From the NCBI RefSeq assembly GCF_900091455.1, contig NZ_LT607412.1, positions 6,324,001 to 6,388,000 of the forward strand: a DNA stretch of 64,000 nucleotides. Reading direction: 5' to 3'. Of the stretch, positions 37,887-46,842 are shown in pieces; position 1 is the first letter of the stretch; every line of letters starts with the position of its first letter. This DNA is from Micromonospora coriariae (GTDB lineage Bacteria > Actinomycetota > Actinomycetes > Mycobacteriales > Micromonosporaceae). The notes below the pieces were generated by a model that saw only the letters and a list, made by a program, of their open reading frames with translations, was not told where the DNA came from and did no database searches. The position numbers were made by a program, and so were the translations under genes.

Positions 37887-38038
37887 GAGGCGCTCGCACT
37901 GGGACTCCCACAGAACGGACTCCCGGCACTTCCGGTCAACAACGGGACGGCCGGGCAGGAACACCGACAGGGCGGATGTTCTCCCGCGGACGCCGATAGG
38001 CTCTAATGGAACTCTCCCCGCCCCCAGGAGGTTCCGCC

Positions 38039-38299
38039 GTGGCGAGCGTCGCCGAGCTGAAGGCTGCCATCGATGTCGCCCTCCAACAGATCGGGGACGG
38101 GCAGACAGCCGTGCAGTCGGCCGGCGAGAAGCTGGCCGAGGCACAGCAGACCCTGGCCGGCGCGCTGGAGGGCAGCGGGCACGAGACGGTGGAGGCGGCT
38201 CAGGCGTCGCTGACACAGGCCAGCCAGGAGCTGGAGGAGTGTCTCGCCGCGACACTGGTCGCGGTGGAGCAGGCGCAGCTCTACGTCGCCACGCTGTAG
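38039..38299 (+). CDS. Small coiled-coil protein, first gene of the FtsK-like operon
   Basis: This is an 86-residue protein that is helical throughout, rich in Ala/Gln/Glu/Leu, with the length and pattern of WXG100/ESAT-6-like hairpins but without a WXG turn (a SGHETVEAA segment sits at the turn). GTG 38039 is chosen because AGGAGG lies at 38026-38031. The next gene starts 6 bp after its stop. It may be the small substrate or structural partner of the translocase encoded downstream. Confidence 0.7.
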   Translation: MASVAELKAAIDVALQQIGDGQTAVQSAGEKLAEAQQTLAGALEGSGHETVEAAQASLTQASQELEECLAATLVAVEQAQLYVATL

Positions 38300-38305
38300 G
38301 CCACC

Positions 38306-39316
38306 ATGTCCATCATCGAGGACGTCGGTGGGCAGGTCCGTGCCGCCAGCGAGGAGTTCCCGGTGGCCCTGCTCGGGCAGGCGCTGGAGAAGTTCGGCCT
38401 GGCCGCGGAGCGGCTGCGCTGGGTACGGCAGGAGTCGGCCAACCCGATGGGCGTGCCCGAGCTGTCCGCCGCCACCGAGCATGCCGAGACCGCCGGTTAC
38501 GCGCTGCGGGTGGCGCAGGAGCAGCTGTCGGCGTACCTGGCCGCGATCGGGCTGGCCGCGGACGGCGCACCGCCGCCCCGCCCGCAGCAACACGAACCCC
38601 GGCACGACGCGCCGCCGGCGGACGGGCCCGCCACCGTGGCGCCGGAGCAGGCCGAGCAGGTCCGGCTGCGCCGCTGGTGGTCGGTGCGGGTGGCGGAGCT
38701 GACCGGCGGACGCGAGGGCGCCGCCGACGAGCCCGACGAACGGCTGGACGACTCCCAGGAGCTGCTGCGCCGGGTGGTACGCGGGGTGCGCGCCGGCGAC
38801 CGGGACCGGTTGGGCACCGAGCTGCGCCGCGCCCCGGCCGACGTCGGCCTGGGGATGGCGGCGCTGGCGCCGCCGCTGCTGCGCGAGCTGGCCGGCGAGC
38901 TGCTGGGCCATCCTCCCCGCGCCGCCGACCTCGGACGGCTGCGCGGGGAGCTGGACGGCCGCGTCCGCGACCTGCTGCCCGGGCTGCCGCCGCCGGTGCT
39001 GGAGACGCTGCTGACCCGGATCTGCCGGATGCCGCCGCCGCGCGGTTCCGGCGAGCCGCCGCACGCCGCCGACTCCGCGGTGACGGCCGGCGTGGCGACC
39101 GGGCTGCTGCTCGCCCGGCTTGGCCGGGACCTGGCCACCTCCGCCGGCCCGCAGCCCGCGACCGCCGGGCAGCCGGTCGGCGCGGGACAACGCCCCGGTG
39201 GTGCGGGCCCACAGCTGCGCGATGCCGGCCGGCGGCACGCCACGGTGCCGCCGCGCGCCGCCGGCCCGTGGCGGGACGCACCGGCGCCGCAGCGACGCCG
39301 GAGCTCCGATGGCTGA
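38306..39316 (+). CDS. Helical protein of the FtsK-like operon
   Basis: This is a 336-residue protein. Residues 1-85 form a helical pair similar in style to the preceding small protein (EFPVALLGQALEKFGLAAERL, then AETAGYALRVAQEQLSAYLAAI). A Pro/His-rich linker (85-110) leads to a second helical domain (about 118-275, with LRRWWSVRVAELTGG and ELLRRVVRGVRAGDRDRL). The basic tail is disordered. No known domain is recognised. Its stop overlaps the FtsK-like start by eight bases. A substrate with a tandem helical hairpin or a scaffold is plausible. Confidence 0.68.
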   Translation: MSIIEDVGGQVRAASEEFPVALLGQALEKFGLAAERLRWVRQESANPMGVPELSAATEHAETAGYALRVAQEQLSAYLAAIGLAADGAPPPRPQQHEPRHDAPPADGPATVAPEQAEQVRLRRWWSVRVAELTGGREGAADEPDERLDDSQELLRRVVRGVRAGDRDRLGTELRRAPADVGLGMAALAPPLLRELAGELLGHPPRAADLGRLRGELDGRVRDLLPGLPPPVLETLLTRICRMPPPRGSGEPPHAADSAVTAGVATGLLLARLGRDLATSAGPQPATAGQPVGAGQRPGGAGPQLRDAGRRHATVPPRAAGPWRDAPAPQRRRSSDG

Positions 39317-41984
39317 CCGGCGTGGCCAACTGGCCGCCCGGGTCCGGGACACCCTCGCCGAGGCGCTGGGCGCCACCCGTACCCGGCTGTCCGCGGCACA
39401 GGCCGAGCTGACCGCCGCGCGCGACCGGCTGACCCGGGTGCGCCGGGCGGCCGCCGCCGTACCGGATCGGGTGGGCGGCCAGCGGGACCGCCGGCTGGCC
39501 GAGATCGACGCCCGGCACGCCGCCCGGATCGCCGAGCTGGCCCGCCACGCCGCCGACGCCGCCCGCCGGGAGGCGCCCGGCTGCGCCGGCGCCGACTGGC
39601 CGGAATGGACGGCCACGCCCTCCCGCCGGGCCGAGCCGCCCGGCGCGCTGCGTGTCGGCACGGTCCGGATCGACGACGTCGACCCGGTGCCCGCGCTGGT
39701 GCCGCTCCTCGACGCGGGGCACGTGCACCTCTCCGGGGACGACCGCGCCGGCTGCGACGCCGTGGTGGCCGCACTGCTGCTGCGGGCCGTCGGCCGCGCC
39801 GACCCGGGCGCGGTACGGCTGATCGGGTACGACCCGGAGCACCTCGGCGGCGGCCTGGCCGGGTTCGCCCCGCTGGGCACGGCGGGCCTGCTCACCTTCG
39901 TCGGCCCCGGCGGGCTGGGCCCCCTCCTGGACGACCTCGTCGAGCAGATCCGCCGGATCAACGAGACCGTGCTGGCCGGCGAGTACGGCTCGCTGCGGGA
40001 GCTGGCCGCGGCGACCGGCCGCCGCCCCGAACCGTGGCGGGTGGCGGTGCTGCTCGGCGGCGACGAGCTGAACCGGCACGAGCGCGGGCAGCTCGACCGG
40101 GTGGTACGGGCCGGCACGGCGTGCGGGGTGCACCTGGTGGTCCGTGGCGTGCCGCTGCCGGAGGACCTGACGGTGACCCGGGTGGTCGCCGAGGCGTCCG
40201 GCGCCCGGATCGGCGGTCCGTCCGGCCTGCCGGTACGGCTGGACCCGCCCCCACCGGCGGCGCTGGTCACCGAGACCTGCCGGGACGCCGCCGCCCGGGT
40301 GAACGCCGGCCCACCGCCGGCCCCGTTCGCCGACCTGCTGCCTCCGCCGGAGCTGATGTGGCGGGAGGACTCCGCCGCCGGGCTGACCGCCCCGATCGGC
40401 GAGGGCCCGCACGGCCGGCCGGTGCGTTTGACGCTGGGCGACTATCCGCCGCACGCGCTGATCGGCGGGCCGTCCGGCACCGGCAAGACGAACCTGATCT
40501 TCGCCTGGATCGGCGCGTTGGCGGCCCGCTACTCCCCCGCCGAGCTGGAGTTCTACCTGCTGGACTTCAAGGAGGGGGTGTCCTTCGCACGGTTCGCGAA
40601 GGGCCGGCGCGACCCGAGCTGGCTGCCGCACATGCGGTTGGTCGGGATCAACGTGAACACCGACCGGGAGTTCGGGCTGGCGCTGCTGCGGTTCCTCACC
40701 GAGGAGCTGCGCCGCCGGGCCGACGCGGCCAAGAAGCACGAGGTGACCAAGCTGGCCGAGCTGCGCGCGGTCGACCCGACGGGGCACTGGCCGCGGATCG
40801 TCGCGGTGGTCGACGAGTTCCAGATGCTGCTGGCCGGCCGGGACGTGGTCGCCCGGGAGGCGGCGGACCTGCTGGAGGACCTGGCCCGGCGGGGCCGGTC
40901 GCAGGGCATCCACCTGGTGCTCGCCTCGCAGGACGTGCGCGGCATCGAGGCGTTGTGGGGTCGCCCGGCGCTGGTCGCCCAGTTCGCCCTGCGCATCGCG
41001 CTGCCCAAGGCGTTGCGGATCCTGGCCGAACGCAACGACGCGGCGCAGTCGCTGCCCCGCTGGCACGCGGTGGTCAACGCAGAGTCGGGCATGGTGGAGG
41101 GCAACGAGATCGCCCGGATCCCGGCGGCCAGCGACTGGGAGACGTGGAGCGGGCTGCAGAACCGGTTGTGGCGGATGCGCCCGCCGGACGCGGCGCCGGC
41201 CCGGCTCTTCGACGGCGACGCCATCCCCCGGCTGGCGGACGCCCCGGATTTCCGGGCGCTCGCCGCTCCCGTGGACGCGACCGCGCCGCGCAGCCCGGTG
41301 GCCCTGCTCGGCGAGATCATCGACGTGCAGGCCCGCTCGGCGGCGCTGCGGCTGCCGCGAGCCCCGGGGCGCAATCTCGCGGTGCTGGGCACCCGGGTGG
41401 ACGAGGCGTGTGCGGTGCTGGACGCGGCGGCCCGGTCGCTGGCCCGCCAGCACCCGCCCGGCACGGCCCGCTTCTCCATCGCGTGCCTGGACCCCGACGC
41501 CGACCCGATGGCCCGCGCGCTCTACGACGACCTGGCCGACGACGCCGCCTGGTACGACGAGGAGACCGTCGGTGAGCTGATGGCCGAGACCGCCGACGGG
41601 CTGGCCGGCCCCGGCAGCCCGCACTACCTGCTGCTGTTCGCGGTGGACGCGGCGGCCGGGGCGCTGGCCGCGCGGGCGGGCAGCCGGACCGGCCTGGAGC
41701 AGCTGCGCCGGGTCCTGCACGACGGGCCGGAACGGCGGACCCACGTGCTGGCCTGGTGGCGGGGGGTGGCCCGGATGCGCGCCGACCTGGGCGGGCCGGC
41801 CGCCCGCACCGACCAGATCGGCGCCTGGGTGGCGCTGGACGCCCACGGCGGCGAGCTGGGGGCCTCGCTCTATCCGGGCACCGGCGGCCCGGACTGGTAT
41901 CCCCGCCCCTGGCGGGGACTCTTCTTCGACCGGGCGGTGCACCGCACCGGACAGGTGATCATCCCCTATGGACCGTCACGATGA
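39309..41984 (+). CDS. FtsK/EccC-like ATPase with N-terminal coiled coil
   Basis: This is an 891-residue protein. Residues 1-85 form a charged coiled coil. A first ATPase-like module (about 105-300) lacks a Walker A: SGDDRAGCDAV stands in its place. The central module is intact: GGPSGTGKTN at 386-395 and VVDEF with Asp502-Glu503. The third (about 660-860) again lacks the lysine (GTRVDEAC). Three tandem modules with some degenerate are characteristic of EccC of type VII secretion, but no transmembrane helices are present. It probably powers transport or assembly of the helical proteins encoded beside it. A DNA-translocase role is the alternative. Confidence 0.82.
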   Translation: MADRRGQLAARVRDTLAEALGATRTRLSAAQAELTAARDRLTRVRRAAAAVPDRVGGQRDRRLAEIDARHAARIAELARHAADAARREAPGCAGADWPEWTATPSRRAEPPGALRVGTVRIDDVDPVPALVPLLDAGHVHLSGDDRAGCDAVVAALLLRAVGRADPGAVRLIGYDPEHLGGGLAGFAPLGTAGLLTFVGPGGLGPLLDDLVEQIRRINETVLAGEYGSLRELAAATGRRPEPWRVAVLLGGDELNRHERGQLDRVVRAGTACGVHLVVRGVPLPEDLTVTRVVAEASGARIGGPSGLPVRLDPPPPAALVTETCRDAAARVNAGPPPAPFADLLPPPELMWREDSAAGLTAPIGEGPHGRPVRLTLGDYPPHALIGGPSGTGKTNLIFAWIGALAARYSPAELEFYLLDFKEGVSFARFAKGRRDPSWLPHMRLVGINVNTDREFGLALLRFLTEELRRRADAAKKHEVTKLAELRAVDPTGHWPRIVAVVDEFQMLLAGRDVVAREAADLLEDLARRGRSQGIHLVLASQDVRGIEALWGRPALVAQFALRIALPKALRILAERNDAAQSLPRWHAVVNAESGMVEGNEIARIPAASDWETWSGLQNRLWRMRPPDAAPARLFDGDAIPRLADAPDFRALAAPVDATAPRSPVALLGEIIDVQARSAALRLPRAPGRNLAVLGTRVDEACAVLDAAARSLARQHPPGTARFSIACLDPDADPMARALYDDLADDAAWYDEETVGELMAETADGLAGPGSPHYLLLFAVDAAAGALAARAGSRTGLEQLRRVLHDGPERRTHVLAWWRGVARMRADLGGPAARTDQIGAWVALDAHGGELGASLYPGTGGPDWYPRPWRGLFFDRAVHRTGQVIIPYGPSR

Positions 41985-42671: not shown

Positions 42672-43946
42672 TCAGGCCGGGATCAGGACGGCCTCGCGGA
42701 GCAGCCGGCGGGCCAGGGTGACCCGGTCGGCGTCGTCGGGCAGCCCGGGCAGGTCGCCCACCCGGGTGACCGCGCCGCTGAGCAGGGCGCGGACGGCCGG
42801 CTCGCAGTCGGCGGGCAGGGTGATGGTGCGGTCGAACAGCCGCAGCGCCACCGCGTCAGTCCCGTGCGGCGCGAGCTGCCAGCGCAGGCCCGGGCGCAGG
42901 GTGAGCAGGGAGTCGGCGTCCAACGCGGCAAGCGCGCCGGCCTGGGCGAGCGGCCGGATCGGCGCCGGGCGGGCAGCCGGCCAGGCCCGCTGCCGCAGCC
43001 GCGCCGCGACGGCGCCCGGCTCGACGCGCAGCAGCCAGTCCCGCAGCGCCTCCACCGTCTCGGTCAGCTCCGGCTCGATGGCGTCCGGGTCGGCGACCTC
43101 GGTGCCGAACGGCAGGCTCGCCCGCAGCCGCTGGTCCTCGGCGGCGAGGGCGAGCAGCTCCTCGACCAGGGCGTAACGGGTCAGCGCGCGGATGCCCACG
43201 GTCAGGTGCAGCGAGCTGGCCTCCTGCGCCTGCGCGCTGTGCAGCCAGCCGCGCGGCAGGTAGAGCGCGTCGCCGGGGGCGAGTACCACGTCCAGCGCGG
43301 CGGGGCCCTGCGCGGTGGCGCCGACCTCGTCGGCGCGGCCGCCCCAGGGCTGCTTCTCCAGCGGGTCGGGCAGCACCGGCGGGTGGATCCGCCAGTGCTT
43401 GCGACCGTCGACCTGGAGCACGAACACGTCGTGGGTGTCGTAGTGGGTGGCGAAGCCCTGACTGCCGGCGGGCGTGAGGTACGCGTTGATCTGCAGTGGT
43501 TGGCTCAGCGCGATGCCCAGGTCGCGGGCGAAGTCGATCAGCGGCGGCCAGATCCGGTGCAGACCCTGCAGCACCAGGGTGGCGCCGGCGGCGTACTGCT
43601 CCAGGACCCGCTCGTCGAGCACCTGGTCGCCGATCTCCGCGCCGGCGCCGCCGCCGCCGGTCCAGCGCGCCGCCGGAACGAGCTGCCCGTCCCTGGCGAC
43701 ACGCAGGAACGGGGTACGCAGACCGCGCCGGCTGAGCAGCTCGTCGGCGTCGGCGGGGCTGAAGAGGTCGGTGAAGCCGGCCGGGTCGGGCAGCTCGGCG
43801 GCGCGGGACAGCAGCGGTGTGTGACCCCAGTGCGCGGCGGCGAACTTGGCCGGTTCGACCGAGACGCAGCGGGCCAGCGCGGCGGCGGCGTGCACGGACG
43901 GAACCGCCGGGCGACCGTGGCCGCCCGGCGGGTCGAGATGCGTCAT
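42672..43946 (-). CDS. JmjC/cupin-4 Fe(II)/2-oxoglutarate oxygenase
   Basis: This is a 424-residue oxygenase of the JmjC (cupin-4) type related to ribosomal oxygenases. The iron triad is visible: His168 and Asp170 in THYDTHDVF, and His236 in LPRGWLHSA. LQVDGRKHWRIHPP and APGDALYLPRGW are typical of the fold. A helical dimerisation part (about 260-330) and a C-terminal winged-helix-like part (340-424) follow. Such enzymes hydroxylate side chains of proteins or peptides. ATG 43946 lies 10 bp after the stop of the repeat-peptide gene on the same strand, so that peptide is its likely substrate. Confidence 0.85.
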   Translation of the reverse strand: MTHLDPPGGHGRPAVPSVHAAAALARCVSVEPAKFAAAHWGHTPLLSRAAELPDPAGFTDLFSPADADELLSRRGLRTPFLRVARDGQLVPAARWTGGGGAGAEIGDQVLDERVLEQYAAGATLVLQGLHRIWPPLIDFARDLGIALSQPLQINAYLTPAGSQGFATHYDTHDVFVLQVDGRKHWRIHPPVLPDPLEKQPWGGRADEVGATAQGPAALDVVLAPGDALYLPRGWLHSAQAQEASSLHLTVGIRALTRYALVEELLALAAEDQRLRASLPFGTEVADPDAIEPELTETVEALRDWLLRVEPGAVAARLRQRAWPAARPAPIRPLAQAGALAALDADSLLTLRPGLRWQLAPHGTDAVALRLFDRTITLPADCEPAVRALLSGAVTRVGDLPGLPDDADRVTLARRLLREAVLIPA

Positions 43947-43956
43947 GACGGTGCCG

Positions 43957-44262
43957 TCACCGCGCGCTGCCGTCGGCGCCACCGTCCTGCTGACCGGGGG
44001 TCGCACCGCCGTCGGCCGGACCCTCCGCGCCACCATCCGCGCCACCGTCCTGCTGACCGGGGGTCGCACCGCCGTCGGCGGGACCCTCCGCGCCACCATC
44101 GGCGCCACCGTCCTGGCGACCCGGAGTGGCACCGCCGTCGGCCGGACCCTCCGCGCCACCATCCGCGCCACCGTCCTGGCGACCCGGGGTCGCACCGCCG
44201 TCGGCCGGGCCCTCCAGGCCGCCGCCGCCAGTGGTCTGCATGTCGTCATCGTTGAGTGCCAT
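43957..44262 (-). CDS. Repeat peptide, possible multi-core RiPP precursor
   Basis: This is a 101-residue protein: a 15-residue N-terminus (MALNDDDMQTTGGGG), four 21-residue repeats with the core GPADGGATPG followed by (R/Q)QDGGADG, and Ala-Arg at the end. It has no hydrophobic core and cannot fold as a globular domain. Start ATG 44262 has GAGGGAG upstream. The oxygenase gene follows after 10 bp. A short leader followed by identical cores beside a modifying enzyme is the organisation of a ribosomally made, post-translationally modified peptide, with Asp, Pro or Gln as hydroxylation sites. A storage or surface repeat protein is the alternative. Confidence 0.7.
   Translation of the reverse strand: MALNDDDMQTTGGGGLEGPADGGATPGRQDGGADGGAEGPADGGATPGRQDGGADGGAEGPADGGATPGQQDGGADGGAEGPADGGATPGQQDGGADGSAR
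43981..44232 (-). repeat. Four in-frame 63-bp tandem repeats
   Basis: Units begin at 43981, 44044, 44107 and 44170, exactly 63 bp apart, and differ at few positions. The two units nearest the gene start code for Arg where the two distal units code for Gln (cgg/ccg versus cag). The exact period keeps the frame. Recombination could change the copy number between strains. Confidence 0.9.
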
Positions 44263-44420
44263 CGGTACTCCCTCGGGTGTGCCGCCCCGCCGTACGCCGG
44301 GGTTCGTCGTGCTGCGGGTGGTACCCCACGCGCGATCTTCTCTAACCCACACCGTAGACGCCGAACCGGGGCGACACGGGCTGTTCACCGGGGGGCGCGG
44401 GTCGGTGCCAGGATGGAGGG

Positions 44421-45209
44421 GTGATCCTGGTGGGCACGTCCGGCTGGCAGTACCGGGACTGGCGCGGCGGCTTCTATCCGGAGCGGCTGCCGCAGCGGCT
44501 CTGGTTGGAGCACTTCGCGGCCGGGTTCGCGACGGTCGAGGTCAACAACGCCTTCTACCGGCTGCCCGAGCGGGACACCTTCGCCGCCTGGCGGGCCCGC
44601 ACCCCGACGGACTTCTGCGTGGCGGTGAAGATGAGCCGCTATCTGACCCACATCAAGCGACTGCGTGACCCGGCCGAGCCGGTGGCCCGGTTCCTCGGGC
44701 GGGCGACCGCGCTCGGTGACCGGCTCGGCCCGGTGCTGCTGCAACTGCCACCGAACCTGCCGGCGAACGTCGAGGCGCTCGACGCGACGCTGCGGCTGTT
44801 TCCGGCCGACGTGCGGGTGGCGGTGGAACCGAGGCACCCGTCCTGGTGGACCGACGCCACCCGCGGGGTGCTGGAACGCCGGCGGGCGGCGCTGGTCTGG
44901 GCGGACCGGCTGGGTCGCCCGGTCGCGCCGCGCTGGCGCACCACCGACTTCGGCTACCTGCGGTTGCACGAGGGGCGGGCCCGGCCCTGGCCCCGGTACG
45001 GTCGCACCGCGCTCGCCTCCTGGGTGCGCCGGCTGGCCGACGCCTTCGGCGCGGATGAGCCGGCGTACGTCTACTTCAACAACGACCCGGGCGGCGCCGC
45101 CATCGTGGACGCCGTCGCCTTCGCCGCGCTGGCCCGGCGGGCCGGTCACCCGGTGTCCCGGGTGCCGCCCGCACCGCCCCGGGACGCGGTGGCCGCCACC
45201 GACGGCTGA
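44421..45209 (+). CDS. DUF72 family protein
   Basis: This 262-residue protein has the DUF72 barrel: VGTSGWQYRDWRGGFYPERLP at the start, FATVEVNNAFYRLPE, GPVLLQLPPNLP, VAVEPRHPSWW and AYVYFNNDPGGAA. The family resembles TIM-barrel sugar isomerases/endonucleases but its activity is unknown. The start is GTG 44421 after GGATGGAGGG. A second DUF72 gene lies 760 bp downstream on the opposite strand. It is divergent from the repeat-peptide gene. Confidence 0.9.
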   Translation: MILVGTSGWQYRDWRGGFYPERLPQRLWLEHFAAGFATVEVNNAFYRLPERDTFAAWRARTPTDFCVAVKMSRYLTHIKRLRDPAEPVARFLGRATALGDRLGPVLLQLPPNLPANVEALDATLRLFPADVRVAVEPRHPSWWTDATRGVLERRRAALVWADRLGRPVAPRWRTTDFGYLRLHEGRARPWPRYGRTALASWVRRLADAFGADEPAYVYFNNDPGGAAIVDAVAFAALARRAGHPVSRVPPAPPRDAVAATDG

Positions 45210-45243: not shown

Positions 45244-45672
45244 TCAGGGCAGCATCCGCGCCAGGTCCTTGGGCATGGTGTCCTTGACGTCCTGCCACTC
45301 ACCCTGGGTGACGTGTCGGCGCAGGGTGTCGAGCACCACCTGCGTCACCCGCTCCGGGCCGCCCTCCACGTCGTACGGGAATCCCTGGCGCACCTCGTAG
45401 AGAAAGTCGTCCCGGTTGAGCTTGATCGGGACGTCCGAGGGGTTCCAGCCGTCGAAGTAGATCCCCCGGACCAGGATCGGCAGCTGCTGGGCGAACTCCA
45501 CGCTCTCGTTCACGGGCAGCCGGTCCCGCAGCAGGTGCAGCACCGTGCGCAACGCCGCGTACGACTGGTTGCGTCGGTCCTTCGGCCAGCCGTAGGCGCT
45601 CTCGATGTCCTTGAGGATGAGGTTCGTCTTGTCCAGCGAGGACTCGAATGCCGAAATCATCGTGTCAGCCAT
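45244..45672 (-). CDS. DUF2267 family protein
   Basis: This 142-residue protein matches DUF2267 (AYGWPKDRRNQSYAALRTVLHLLRDRLPVNESVEFAQQLPILVRGIYFDGW). It is a helical family common in stress-related loci and of unknown function. It lies downstream of, and overlaps by eight bases, a 61-residue small gene. Confidence 0.9.
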   Translation of the reverse strand: MADTMISAFESSLDKTNLILKDIESAYGWPKDRRNQSYAALRTVLHLLRDRLPVNESVEFAQQLPILVRGIYFDGWNPSDVPIKLNRDDFLYEVRQGFPYDVEGGPERVTQVVLDTLRRHVTQGEWQDVKDTMPKDLARMLP

Positions 45673-45850
45673 CGGTCGACCCCCGTTCCGCGTTGTCCCA
45701 CCGTTGGTAGTCGTTGCGCCGCGGTGGCCCCGCCGGGCCGCGTCGGGCCCGTATCGGGCTGCCCTGCGGCGCGCGCCGGGCGTTGTCGGCCGTACCGACC
45801 ACGTGCAGGACGGCACCGCGCCGTCTATCCGCCACCAGTCGAACCGTCAT
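45665..45850 (-). CDS. Small basic hypothetical protein
   Basis: This is a 61-residue arginine-rich protein (TVRLVADRRRGAVLHVVGTADNARRAP). ATG 45850 has a full GGAGGTGA site 5-12 bases upstream, so translation is likely. The stop overlaps the DUF2267 start region. The N-terminus forms one beta hairpin and the rest is disordered. No family is recognised. Confidence 0.6.
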   Translation of the reverse strand: MTVRLVADRRRGAVLHVVGTADNARRAPQGSPIRARRGPAGPPRRNDYQRWDNAERGSTDG

Positions 45851-45969: not shown

Positions 45970-46842
45970 TCAGTCTGCGCCGAGCAGCCCGGCGAGGGTC
46001 TTCGCGTTCGTCTGCGCGTAGTCGCGGTAGCAGTTGTTCATGAGCACGTGTGTCTGCCCGGCCTCGTCGGCCAGCTCGCGCAGCTTCGGCGCCCAGTCGG
46101 CCAGCTCCCGCTTGGAGTAGTGGTAGCCGAACTTCTCGTGGATGTCCTTGCTGGTCCACTTGTCGCTGTGGCCGTGAAAGCGCACCACGGCGAGGTCCGC
46201 GGTCGCGGCCAGCACCGGCGGCACCGACGACCGATGGCCCTGCGGCATGTCCACGCAGACGTACGGCAGCCGGTGCTCCCGCAGGAAGGCGAGCGTCTCG
46301 TCGGCGTTGGCGCCGTCGAACCAGGAGGCGTGGCGGAACTCGTAGGCCGGCCGCAGCGGCGCGCAGCGCTTCGCCACCTCCAGCAGGTACTGCTTGTTGT
46401 CCCGCTTGATGGTGAACCAGGGCGGGAACTGGAACAGCAGCGCTCCCAACCTGCCGGCCTCGACAAGCGGGTCCAACGCGGACAGGAAACGCGACCACAC
46501 CTCCTCGTACGCCTGCGCGGGCAGGTCGTCGGGGTAGATGTTCTTCTTGTCGGTCTCCGGGCGCAGGTCCTTGTAGAGCGCGCTGACCCGGGTGGGATGA
46601 CCGGTCAGCAGGCTGAACGCCTTGATGTTGAATGTGAAGCCGGCCGGGGTGCGTTCGGCCCAGAGCCGCGCGGTCGCCTCGGCGGGCGGCGAGTAGTAGG
46701 TGGCGTCCACCTCGACCAGCGGAAACTGCCGGGCGTAGTACGCCAGCCGCTTCTCCGGCGTGTCCGCGGTCTGCGGATACCAGCCCGAGTCCAGCAGCGT
46801 GCGGTCGGTCCAGGACGCGGTCCCCACGAGGATGTCACCCAT
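45970..46842 (-). CDS. DUF72 family protein, second copy
   Basis: This is a 290-residue DUF72 protein distinct from the copy at 44421-45209, with different spacing and an internal TDKKNIYPDDL segment. Typical pieces are VGTASWTDRTLLDSGWYP, FPLVEVDATYYSPP, ALLFQFPPWFTI, PAYEFRHASWF and HVLMNNCYRDYAQTNA. These are two separate subfamilies and not a recent duplication. Function is unknown. Confidence 0.9.
   Translation of the reverse strand: MGDILVGTASWTDRTLLDSGWYPQTADTPEKRLAYYARQFPLVEVDATYYSPPAEATARLWAERTPAGFTFNIKAFSLLTGHPTRVSALYKDLRPETDKKNIYPDDLPAQAYEEVWSRFLSALDPLVEAGRLGALLFQFPPWFTIKRDNKQYLLEVAKRCAPLRPAYEFRHASWFDGANADETLAFLREHRLPYVCVDMPQGHRSSVPPVLAATADLAVVRFHGHSDKWTSKDIHEKFGYHYSKRELADWAPKLRELADEAGQTHVLMNNCYRDYAQTNAKTLAGLLGAD

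Follow-up and report, generated by a model that had tools for sequence, protein, structure and literature searches.

A 64,000-nucleotide (nt) stretch of Micromonospora coriariae DNA (RefSeq assembly GCF_900091455.1, contig NZ_LT607412.1, positions 6,324,001 to 6,388,000; hereafter the window) carries on its reverse strand a gene for a short repeat peptide rich in aspartate (Asp), followed at once by a gene for a JmjC-type oxygenase. The pairing of these two genes is phylum-wide, in Actinobacteria of many families. On balance we favour the view that they belong to an undescribed system resembling those that make ribosomally synthesized and post-translationally modified peptides (RiPPs), in which the JmjC enzyme would hydroxylate several Asp residues of each precursor. 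Comparison of sequences makes it very likely that the enzyme modifies the peptide in some way, and likely, with rather less assurance, that Asp is the residue concerned.

The 30 JmjC loci that scored best all belong to the genus, and in 30/30 the peptide gene was found directly upstream. A sample of 200 Micromonosporaceae genomes gave a JmjC match in 130, a peptide match in 125 and both in 124, these being counts of presence in a genome. The six JmjC-only genomes had remote matches only (best E 8.7e-36 to 2.3e-5) and no peptide, while in the sole peptide-only genome (G113) the peptide lies at a contig end. When named genomes were scanned with only the peptide as query, at least 233 relatives were confirmed; of these the best 80 were kept, and a JmjC frame followed directly downstream on the same strand in 78, the contigs of the other two stopping 2 and 42 bases past the peptide match. 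Members of the Micromonosporaceae, Mycobacteriaceae, Nocardiaceae, Dietziaceae, Geodermatophilaceae, Cellulomonadaceae, Microbacteriaceae, Micrococcaceae and Streptomycetaceae are represented among these best 80 loci. In a phylum sample of 396 genomes the peptide was present in 20, with JmjC alongside in 20/20; a JmjC profile run on the same genomes found matches in 64, and the top 20 scores were those of the 20 peptide-bearing genomes. The JmjC frame is split in pieces at locus L035 and in genome G057, both of which were kept as they are. A plasmid search gave 46 records, all below 60% identity (best 33.6%). The preliminary description of this DNA had proposed that the oxygenase modifies each repeat, and the pairing counts support that proposal; the outcome that it had set against itself, a peptide widespread without a JmjC neighbour, did not occur, the exceptions being genome G115 and an extra copy in genome G137.

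These two genomes do speak against a fixed partnership. G115 (one contig, for which 10% contamination is given) has peptide and JmjC genes unlinked, at C1:7319817 and 4881203. The main peptide lies ~2.4 Mb from the JmjC gene, with a weak further match ~0.26 Mb away, and the JmjC frame is full-length but has no Asp-rich frame before it. Position 173 of the G115 enzyme is Gly, as compared with Asp in all 53 aligned enzymes; possibly the G115 genes are a decaying pair. In G137 an additional peptide copy without a partner lies ~19 kb from the paired one. The two cases indicate that the link can break, yet both genes are present in these genomes.

The peptide of the window consists of MALNDDDMQTTGGGGL, four units of the form EGPADGGATPG[RQ]QDGGADG[GS]A and a final arginine (Arg), that is, 16 leader residues, 84 in the repeats and one Arg. 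The 101-residue frame with four 21-residue repeats, a ribosome-binding sequence and a stop 10 nt before the JmjC start had been noticed in the preliminary description and was recovered in all these respects; the leader stands too, but not its given length of 15 residues, a difference of register. Tandem Repeats Finder (TRF) scored the array at 403 (period 63 nt, 3.8 copies, 93% matches, no indels), the top score among the 17 TRF rows of the window. The gene is single-copy in the source genome (one contig, 6.93 Mb). Among 15 sequences from the genus, each 101 residues long and one of them the window's, variable sites at codon positions 1, 2 and 3 number 9, 9 and 85, which shows that the peptide frame is a real gene. 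A 525-aa frame (ATG at 44249) spans the peptide region into the JmjC frame; since a comparable long frame is missing in 26 of the 30 genus loci, the 424-aa JmjC start is preferred.

Neither Pfam nor NCBIfam holds a family for the peptide of the window, and an NCBIfam search with one of its relatives gave only a meaningless match (E 2.7). A protein search that scored only the 7989 candidates sharing most words yielded 153 relatives, many of ~60 residues with two units; Micromonospora, Salinispora, Phytohabitans, Amycolatopsis, Leifsonia, Rhodococcus, Aeromicrobium and Streptomyces are represented among the 120 matches listed. Some peptide records carry the database name 'BatC protein', which these searches do not support and which looks transferred. 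Tandem near-identical units, as in multicore precursors, number 2 to 6 in 123 of 126 peptides. The peptide of L129 (G509) has one EGPADGGA unit and then a tail that is an almost pure GGAD run, which suggests slippage-driven core growth.

A precursor-like frame also accompanies more distant JmjC relatives. The JmjC proteins next in score had no EGPADGG peptide match; of the 44 phylum-sample genomes with JmjC but without the repeat peptide, 40 were examined (G420, G493, G532 and G500 were left out). Two loci, L172 and L173, fall within the EGPADGG-type group of the JmjC tree, the former with a DGGADGG-rich frame that has no leader and the latter with an acidic frame that has no repeats. The other distant loci, mostly in other classes, have another short frame directly upstream, with a similar start such as RVTDEDI, LSDEDI or LTDEDI and tails such as DGDATDGTDGDA (leader consensus L-[ST]-D-E-D-I, Asp-rich core). 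We counted as distant precursors those frames with the leader motif in the first 30 residues and a stop close to the JmjC start, a definition written after the first batch of loci and applied to both batches. In a set of 31 loci (L174 to L205 minus the EGPADGG-type L189) a distant precursor was found in 30 of the 30 testable loci, L185 being cut by the contig end; the second batch alone gave 14/14, and six remote-JmjC controls gave none. Out of 5087 open frames in the distant loci, 29 combine the leader with at least 18% Asp, one per locus, and no frame in the controls does so.

The core behind this leader takes several forms. The precursors of L190 and L205 have two TEDDENLDAPGEHS[QK]DTGDE units each, while that of L188 (G442), whose JmjC protein belongs to the same group, has an ADGTDQGVxGGTYGPRDA repeat with less Asp after the leader LGDDDI. 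A leader of similar form, L-[STN]-D-[DE]-D-[IM], is joined to four core types in all, so that the leader is separate and the core varies; it was not seen in the Streptomyces and Arthrobacter types or in L172. On a tree built from 59 JmjC proteins, L172 and L173 group with the EGPADGG-type rows (90/100), and the remaining rows with a peptide make up a second group (90/89); the separation from the controls is weak.

The enzyme has an intact active site. The window's protein matches PF08007 (JmjC_2; E 5.7e-29), with an HxD...H triad in a NO66-like architecture, and NCBIfam has no family for it. The iron triad of histidine (His) 168, Asp170 and His236, read as intact in the preliminary description, proved invariant in 53/53 aligned enzymes, the window's included, as did Lys183, which we take to bind 2-oxoglutarate (2OG). 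Arg77 is present in 52 of the 53 as compared with none of the six remote-JmjC controls, and Gln152 in 53/53 as compared with 2/6; Arg77 might hold the Asp carboxylate. The C-terminal domain appears to resemble RiPP recognition elements (RREs). The closest solved relatives are NO66, MINA53 and YcfD, and the database names of the enzyme group, NO66 or L16 Arg81 hydroxylase, look transferred. A remote JmjC_2 paralogue in the source genome (L212, G000:C1:5371809-5372861, at 5.37 Mb) has no Asp-rich frame upstream.

A third gene is frequent outside the Micromonosporaceae. At 32 of 37 named loci from other families, and at 25 of 31 distant loci, the JmjC gene is immediately followed, in the same orientation, by a Suc_Fer-like frame; four copies tested against PF06999 gave E values of 8e-17 to 6e-19. 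We take Suc_Fer proteins to be thioredoxin-fold [2Fe-2S] proteins like yeast Apd1/Aim32, and Aim32 is reportedly described as a 2Fe-2S protein in the title of a paper. Six distant loci are without the same-strand frame (L182 has an opposite-strand copy and L184 ends at a contig end); no Suc_Fer neighbour was found at L190 and L205. The frame was found at 0/43 named Micromonosporaceae loci and 0/6 remote-JmjC controls, and at E 0.001 the gene is absent from the window's genome. Neighbouring frames of at least 70 aa were clustered at blastp bits above 80 in one locus from each of 24 genera or groups, and neighbours were also clustered at 20 distant loci, a procedure that would miss small or fast-evolving genes. 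Beyond local synteny and antisense shadow frames, as which we took several groups lying antisense within JmjC or Suc_Fer, no other gene recurred widely across genera in the clustered flanks. Nor was any protease or exporter family seen to recur in flanks of up to 8 kb, although clustering could miss one, or it may be encoded elsewhere. This agrees with the earlier remark that no such gene stands beside the pair, and it makes 'RiPP-like' a safer term than 'RiPP'.

The same result favours the strongest alternative to a modified and processed precursor, namely that the peptide is a small acidic cellular protein that has an intracellular role, as a metal buffer or as an oxygen-, iron- or 2OG-responsive factor, and is never cleaved or exported. 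We rate this as a serious contender with somewhat less than an even chance. The EGPADGGA...DGGADG unit is almost invariant across families, unlike what is seen in diversifying antibiotics, and this points to a conserved physiological role. A stress-type promoter element is likewise conserved in the Micromonosporaceae. The pattern GNTT-N14-18-GGGTA occurs in 64/69 upstream regions of that family (the window's counted twice, as L001 and L002), as compared with a mean of 0.3 in shuffles that were single-base, the loci themselves being related. In the window it reads GGTTAGAGAAGATCGCGCGTGGGGTA, which fits a sigma-B/F-type (stress-sigma) consensus. It was found in 0/33 upstream regions outside the Micromonosporaceae, and we therefore claim no general regulation. 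On the other hand, a leader followed by a rapidly evolving core rich in Asp, found across classes, is how precursors would be expected to be built, and export genes may sit elsewhere.

If the peptide is the substrate, the composition of its cores bears on which side chain would be modified. Units were anchored on E-G-x-A only, with a unit length of 15 to 30, in peptides pre-picked for at least one ADGG-type and at least one DGGAD-type motif, from genome sets that may overlap; this gave 380 units, 135 of them distinct. An earlier motif count (403 units) had fixed several positions; L001 and duplicate loci of the same genomes were dropped. Three positions are Asp in 380/380 units. Asp makes up 29% of residues in the distant cores, counted in 31 peptides with L189 among them, and the gap from one Asp to the next is two or three residues in 496 of 592 cases. 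Asp is found in every core type and His is missing in some, which points to Asp as the shared reactive side chain.

It is unlikely that the enzyme instead modifies the His, Gln or Arg before DGG, or a Pro, as a local variant of the chemistry of NO66 and MINA53 (His) or YcfD (Arg). These proteins are its nearest solved relatives, and suitable residues are common: of 378 units, 285 have His immediately before DGG, 75 have Gln and 17 Arg, 364 have Pro in the linker, and 116 of 126 peptides have His after residue 12. The remaining ten peptides, however, have none there, among them the His-free peptide of the window, and at L130 the stretch between ADGGA and DGGADG is free of both His and Arg. His, Arg and Pro account for 0.7, 2.2 and 3.3% of residues in the distant cores. 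As universal targets His and Arg were thus set aside, rather than excluded, on composition.

We consider it very improbable that the JmjC protein is an ordinary ribosomal oxygenase, with the peptide only a regulator or pseudo-substrate. The patchy spread of the repeat type (20/396) and the close pairing do not fit a housekeeping ribosome modifier; pairing with a peptide would argue against hydroxylation of His or Arg in ribosomal proteins, and the unit numbers given above suit a substrate better than a regulator. That the repeat frame is a non-functional, low-complexity open frame, as its GC-rich repetitive character might suggest, is for practical purposes refuted by the codon-position variation; the leader and pre-JmjC position conserved across the phylum also speak against it.

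From these observations we infer a scheme in which peptide and JmjC genes would constitute an operon whose product is a ribosomal peptide bearing several hydroxylations. The enzyme would bind the N-terminal leader through its L-x-D-D-D-I/M motif, probably by means of the C-terminal RRE-like domain, and the disordered repeat tail would be threaded past the Fe(II)/2OG site. There Asp would be hydroxylated, most simply at the beta carbon and at several residues per peptide. Members of this enzyme group from other lineages would act on other Asp-rich repeat tails, aided by the Suc_Fer-like protein, with which the Micromonosporaceae would dispense. Such a reaction would yield a multivalent beta-hydroxyaspartyl peptide that could plausibly bind metal; because no linked protease or exporter was found, it may be kept in the cell or freed by housekeeping proteases. 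That the product is a beta-hydroxyaspartyl metal binder is a tentative suggestion. Similarly speculative is a broader proposal, in which peptide, JmjC enzyme and [2Fe-2S] Suc_Fer protein would make a poly-beta-hydroxyaspartyl metallophore or metal buffer for iron or another metal, the ferredoxin reducing the iron of the enzyme or of the ligand, and would constitute a phylum-wide undescribed class.

Features of the peptide–JmjC locus (positions in the window)
Feature	Position	Strand	Basis
JmjC_2/cupin-4 Fe(II)/2OG oxygenase gene, 424 aa	42672..43946	-	Pfam and structural relatives
C-terminal winged-helix/RRE-like domain, JmjC residues 346-424	42675..42911	-	resemblance to RREs
Stretch with iron triad His168, Asp170, His236 and Lys183	43239..43445	-	alignment
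Putative precursor peptide gene, 101 aa + stop	43957..44262	-	codon constraint, homologues
Repeat 4, EGPADGGATPGQQDGGADGSA	43963..44025	-	translation and TRF
Repeat 3, EGPADGGATPGQQDGGADGGA	44026..44088	-	translation and TRF
Repeat 2, EGPADGGATPGRQDGGADGGA	44089..44151	-	translation and TRF
Repeat 1, EGPADGGATPGRQDGGADGGA	44152..44214	-	translation and TRF
Leader MALNDDDMQTTGGGGL, conserved L-N-D-D-D-[IM] motif	44215..44262	-	similar motif in distant precursors
Ribosome-binding sequence GAGGGAGT before peptide ATG	44267..44274	-	read from sequence
Conserved promoter-like element GGTTAGAGAAGATCGCGCGTGGGGTA	44322..44347	-	pattern GNTT-N14-18-GGGTA

Around the locus, an FtsK/SpoIIIE-family ATPase frame (39120-41981, +) is convergent to the JmjC gene and has upstream of it two small frames without a Pfam match (38006-38299 and 38306-39316). 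FtsK/SpoIIIE-related frames recur near JmjC in five Micromonosporaceae genera; that the region is a type VII-like secretion locus is a guess. Just upstream of the peptide operon, DUF72 genes (44421-45209, +, and 45970-46842, -) flank a DUF2267 gene (45244-45816), and a dksA/traR zinc-finger gene comes after them.

Should the scheme prove true, it would provide a substrate for a large group of JmjC enzymes whose present names often refer to human NO66 or Escherichia coli YcfD; under the broader proposal, many actinobacterial 'NO66/L16 ribosomal oxygenases' would be peptide hydroxylases. The scheme would also add a RiPP-like system of minimal size, two or three genes, that targets Asp, and offer one-step heterologous enzymes able to hydroxylate many Asp in a repeat peptide. 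A possible further implication is a peptide-binding role common to RREs and to the winged-helix domain of ribosomal oxygenases, an idea that can be tested directly on the actinobacterial pairs.

The earlier suggestion that the system may be undescribed still holds, as we found no description of a peptide–JmjC cassette among the open-licence papers listed, which is not proof of absence; the string 'DGGADG' led to one unrelated paper. A close likeness is to BipG and PbsQ, JmjC (cupin-like) hydroxylases of biphenomycin-type RiPP clusters, which are likewise Fe(II)/2OG enzymes encoded with a RiPP precursor whose side chain they hydroxylate (PMC12707348, PMC12257519). They act on ornithine, made from Arg by an arginase, in a short core, and belong to many-gene clusters with MNIO, radical SAM, transporter and protease genes. 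The cassette described here has two or three genes and Asp-rich repeat cores, and such partners were not seen with it: no MNIO, arginase or B12 radical SAM protein was found among nine window neighbours (Pfam), and none recurred across 24 genera. With NO66, MINA53 and YcfD (PF08007) the enzyme shares the full-length fold, the C-terminal winged-helix domain, the HxD...H triad and the Lys. By the titles of their PDB entries these proteins hydroxylate His (NO66, MINA53) or Arg (YcfD) of ribosomal proteins; the present gene, by contrast, has an Asp-rich peptide as its partner, and Arg77 sets the paired group apart from the six controls. A further point of comparison is PesHI, presumably of the MNIO type.

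Asp beta-hydroxylation in a ribosomal precursor is described for PesHI and the nitrilobacillins, which differ by another enzyme family, a single Asp and a nitrile-forming pathway (PMC13060819). RRE-like folds fused to PF08007 and to bacterial JmjC homologues in RiPP-like contexts appear in an RRE survey, where the passage concerned names no precursor, repeat, cassette or target residue (PMC12710340). JmjC enzymes in RiPP clusters (BipG, PbsQ) and beta-hydroxy-Asp in RiPPs (PesHI) are thus known from other clusters or enzyme families; what appears new here is a RiPP-like pair with a very simple gene set and an Asp-rich repeat precursor.
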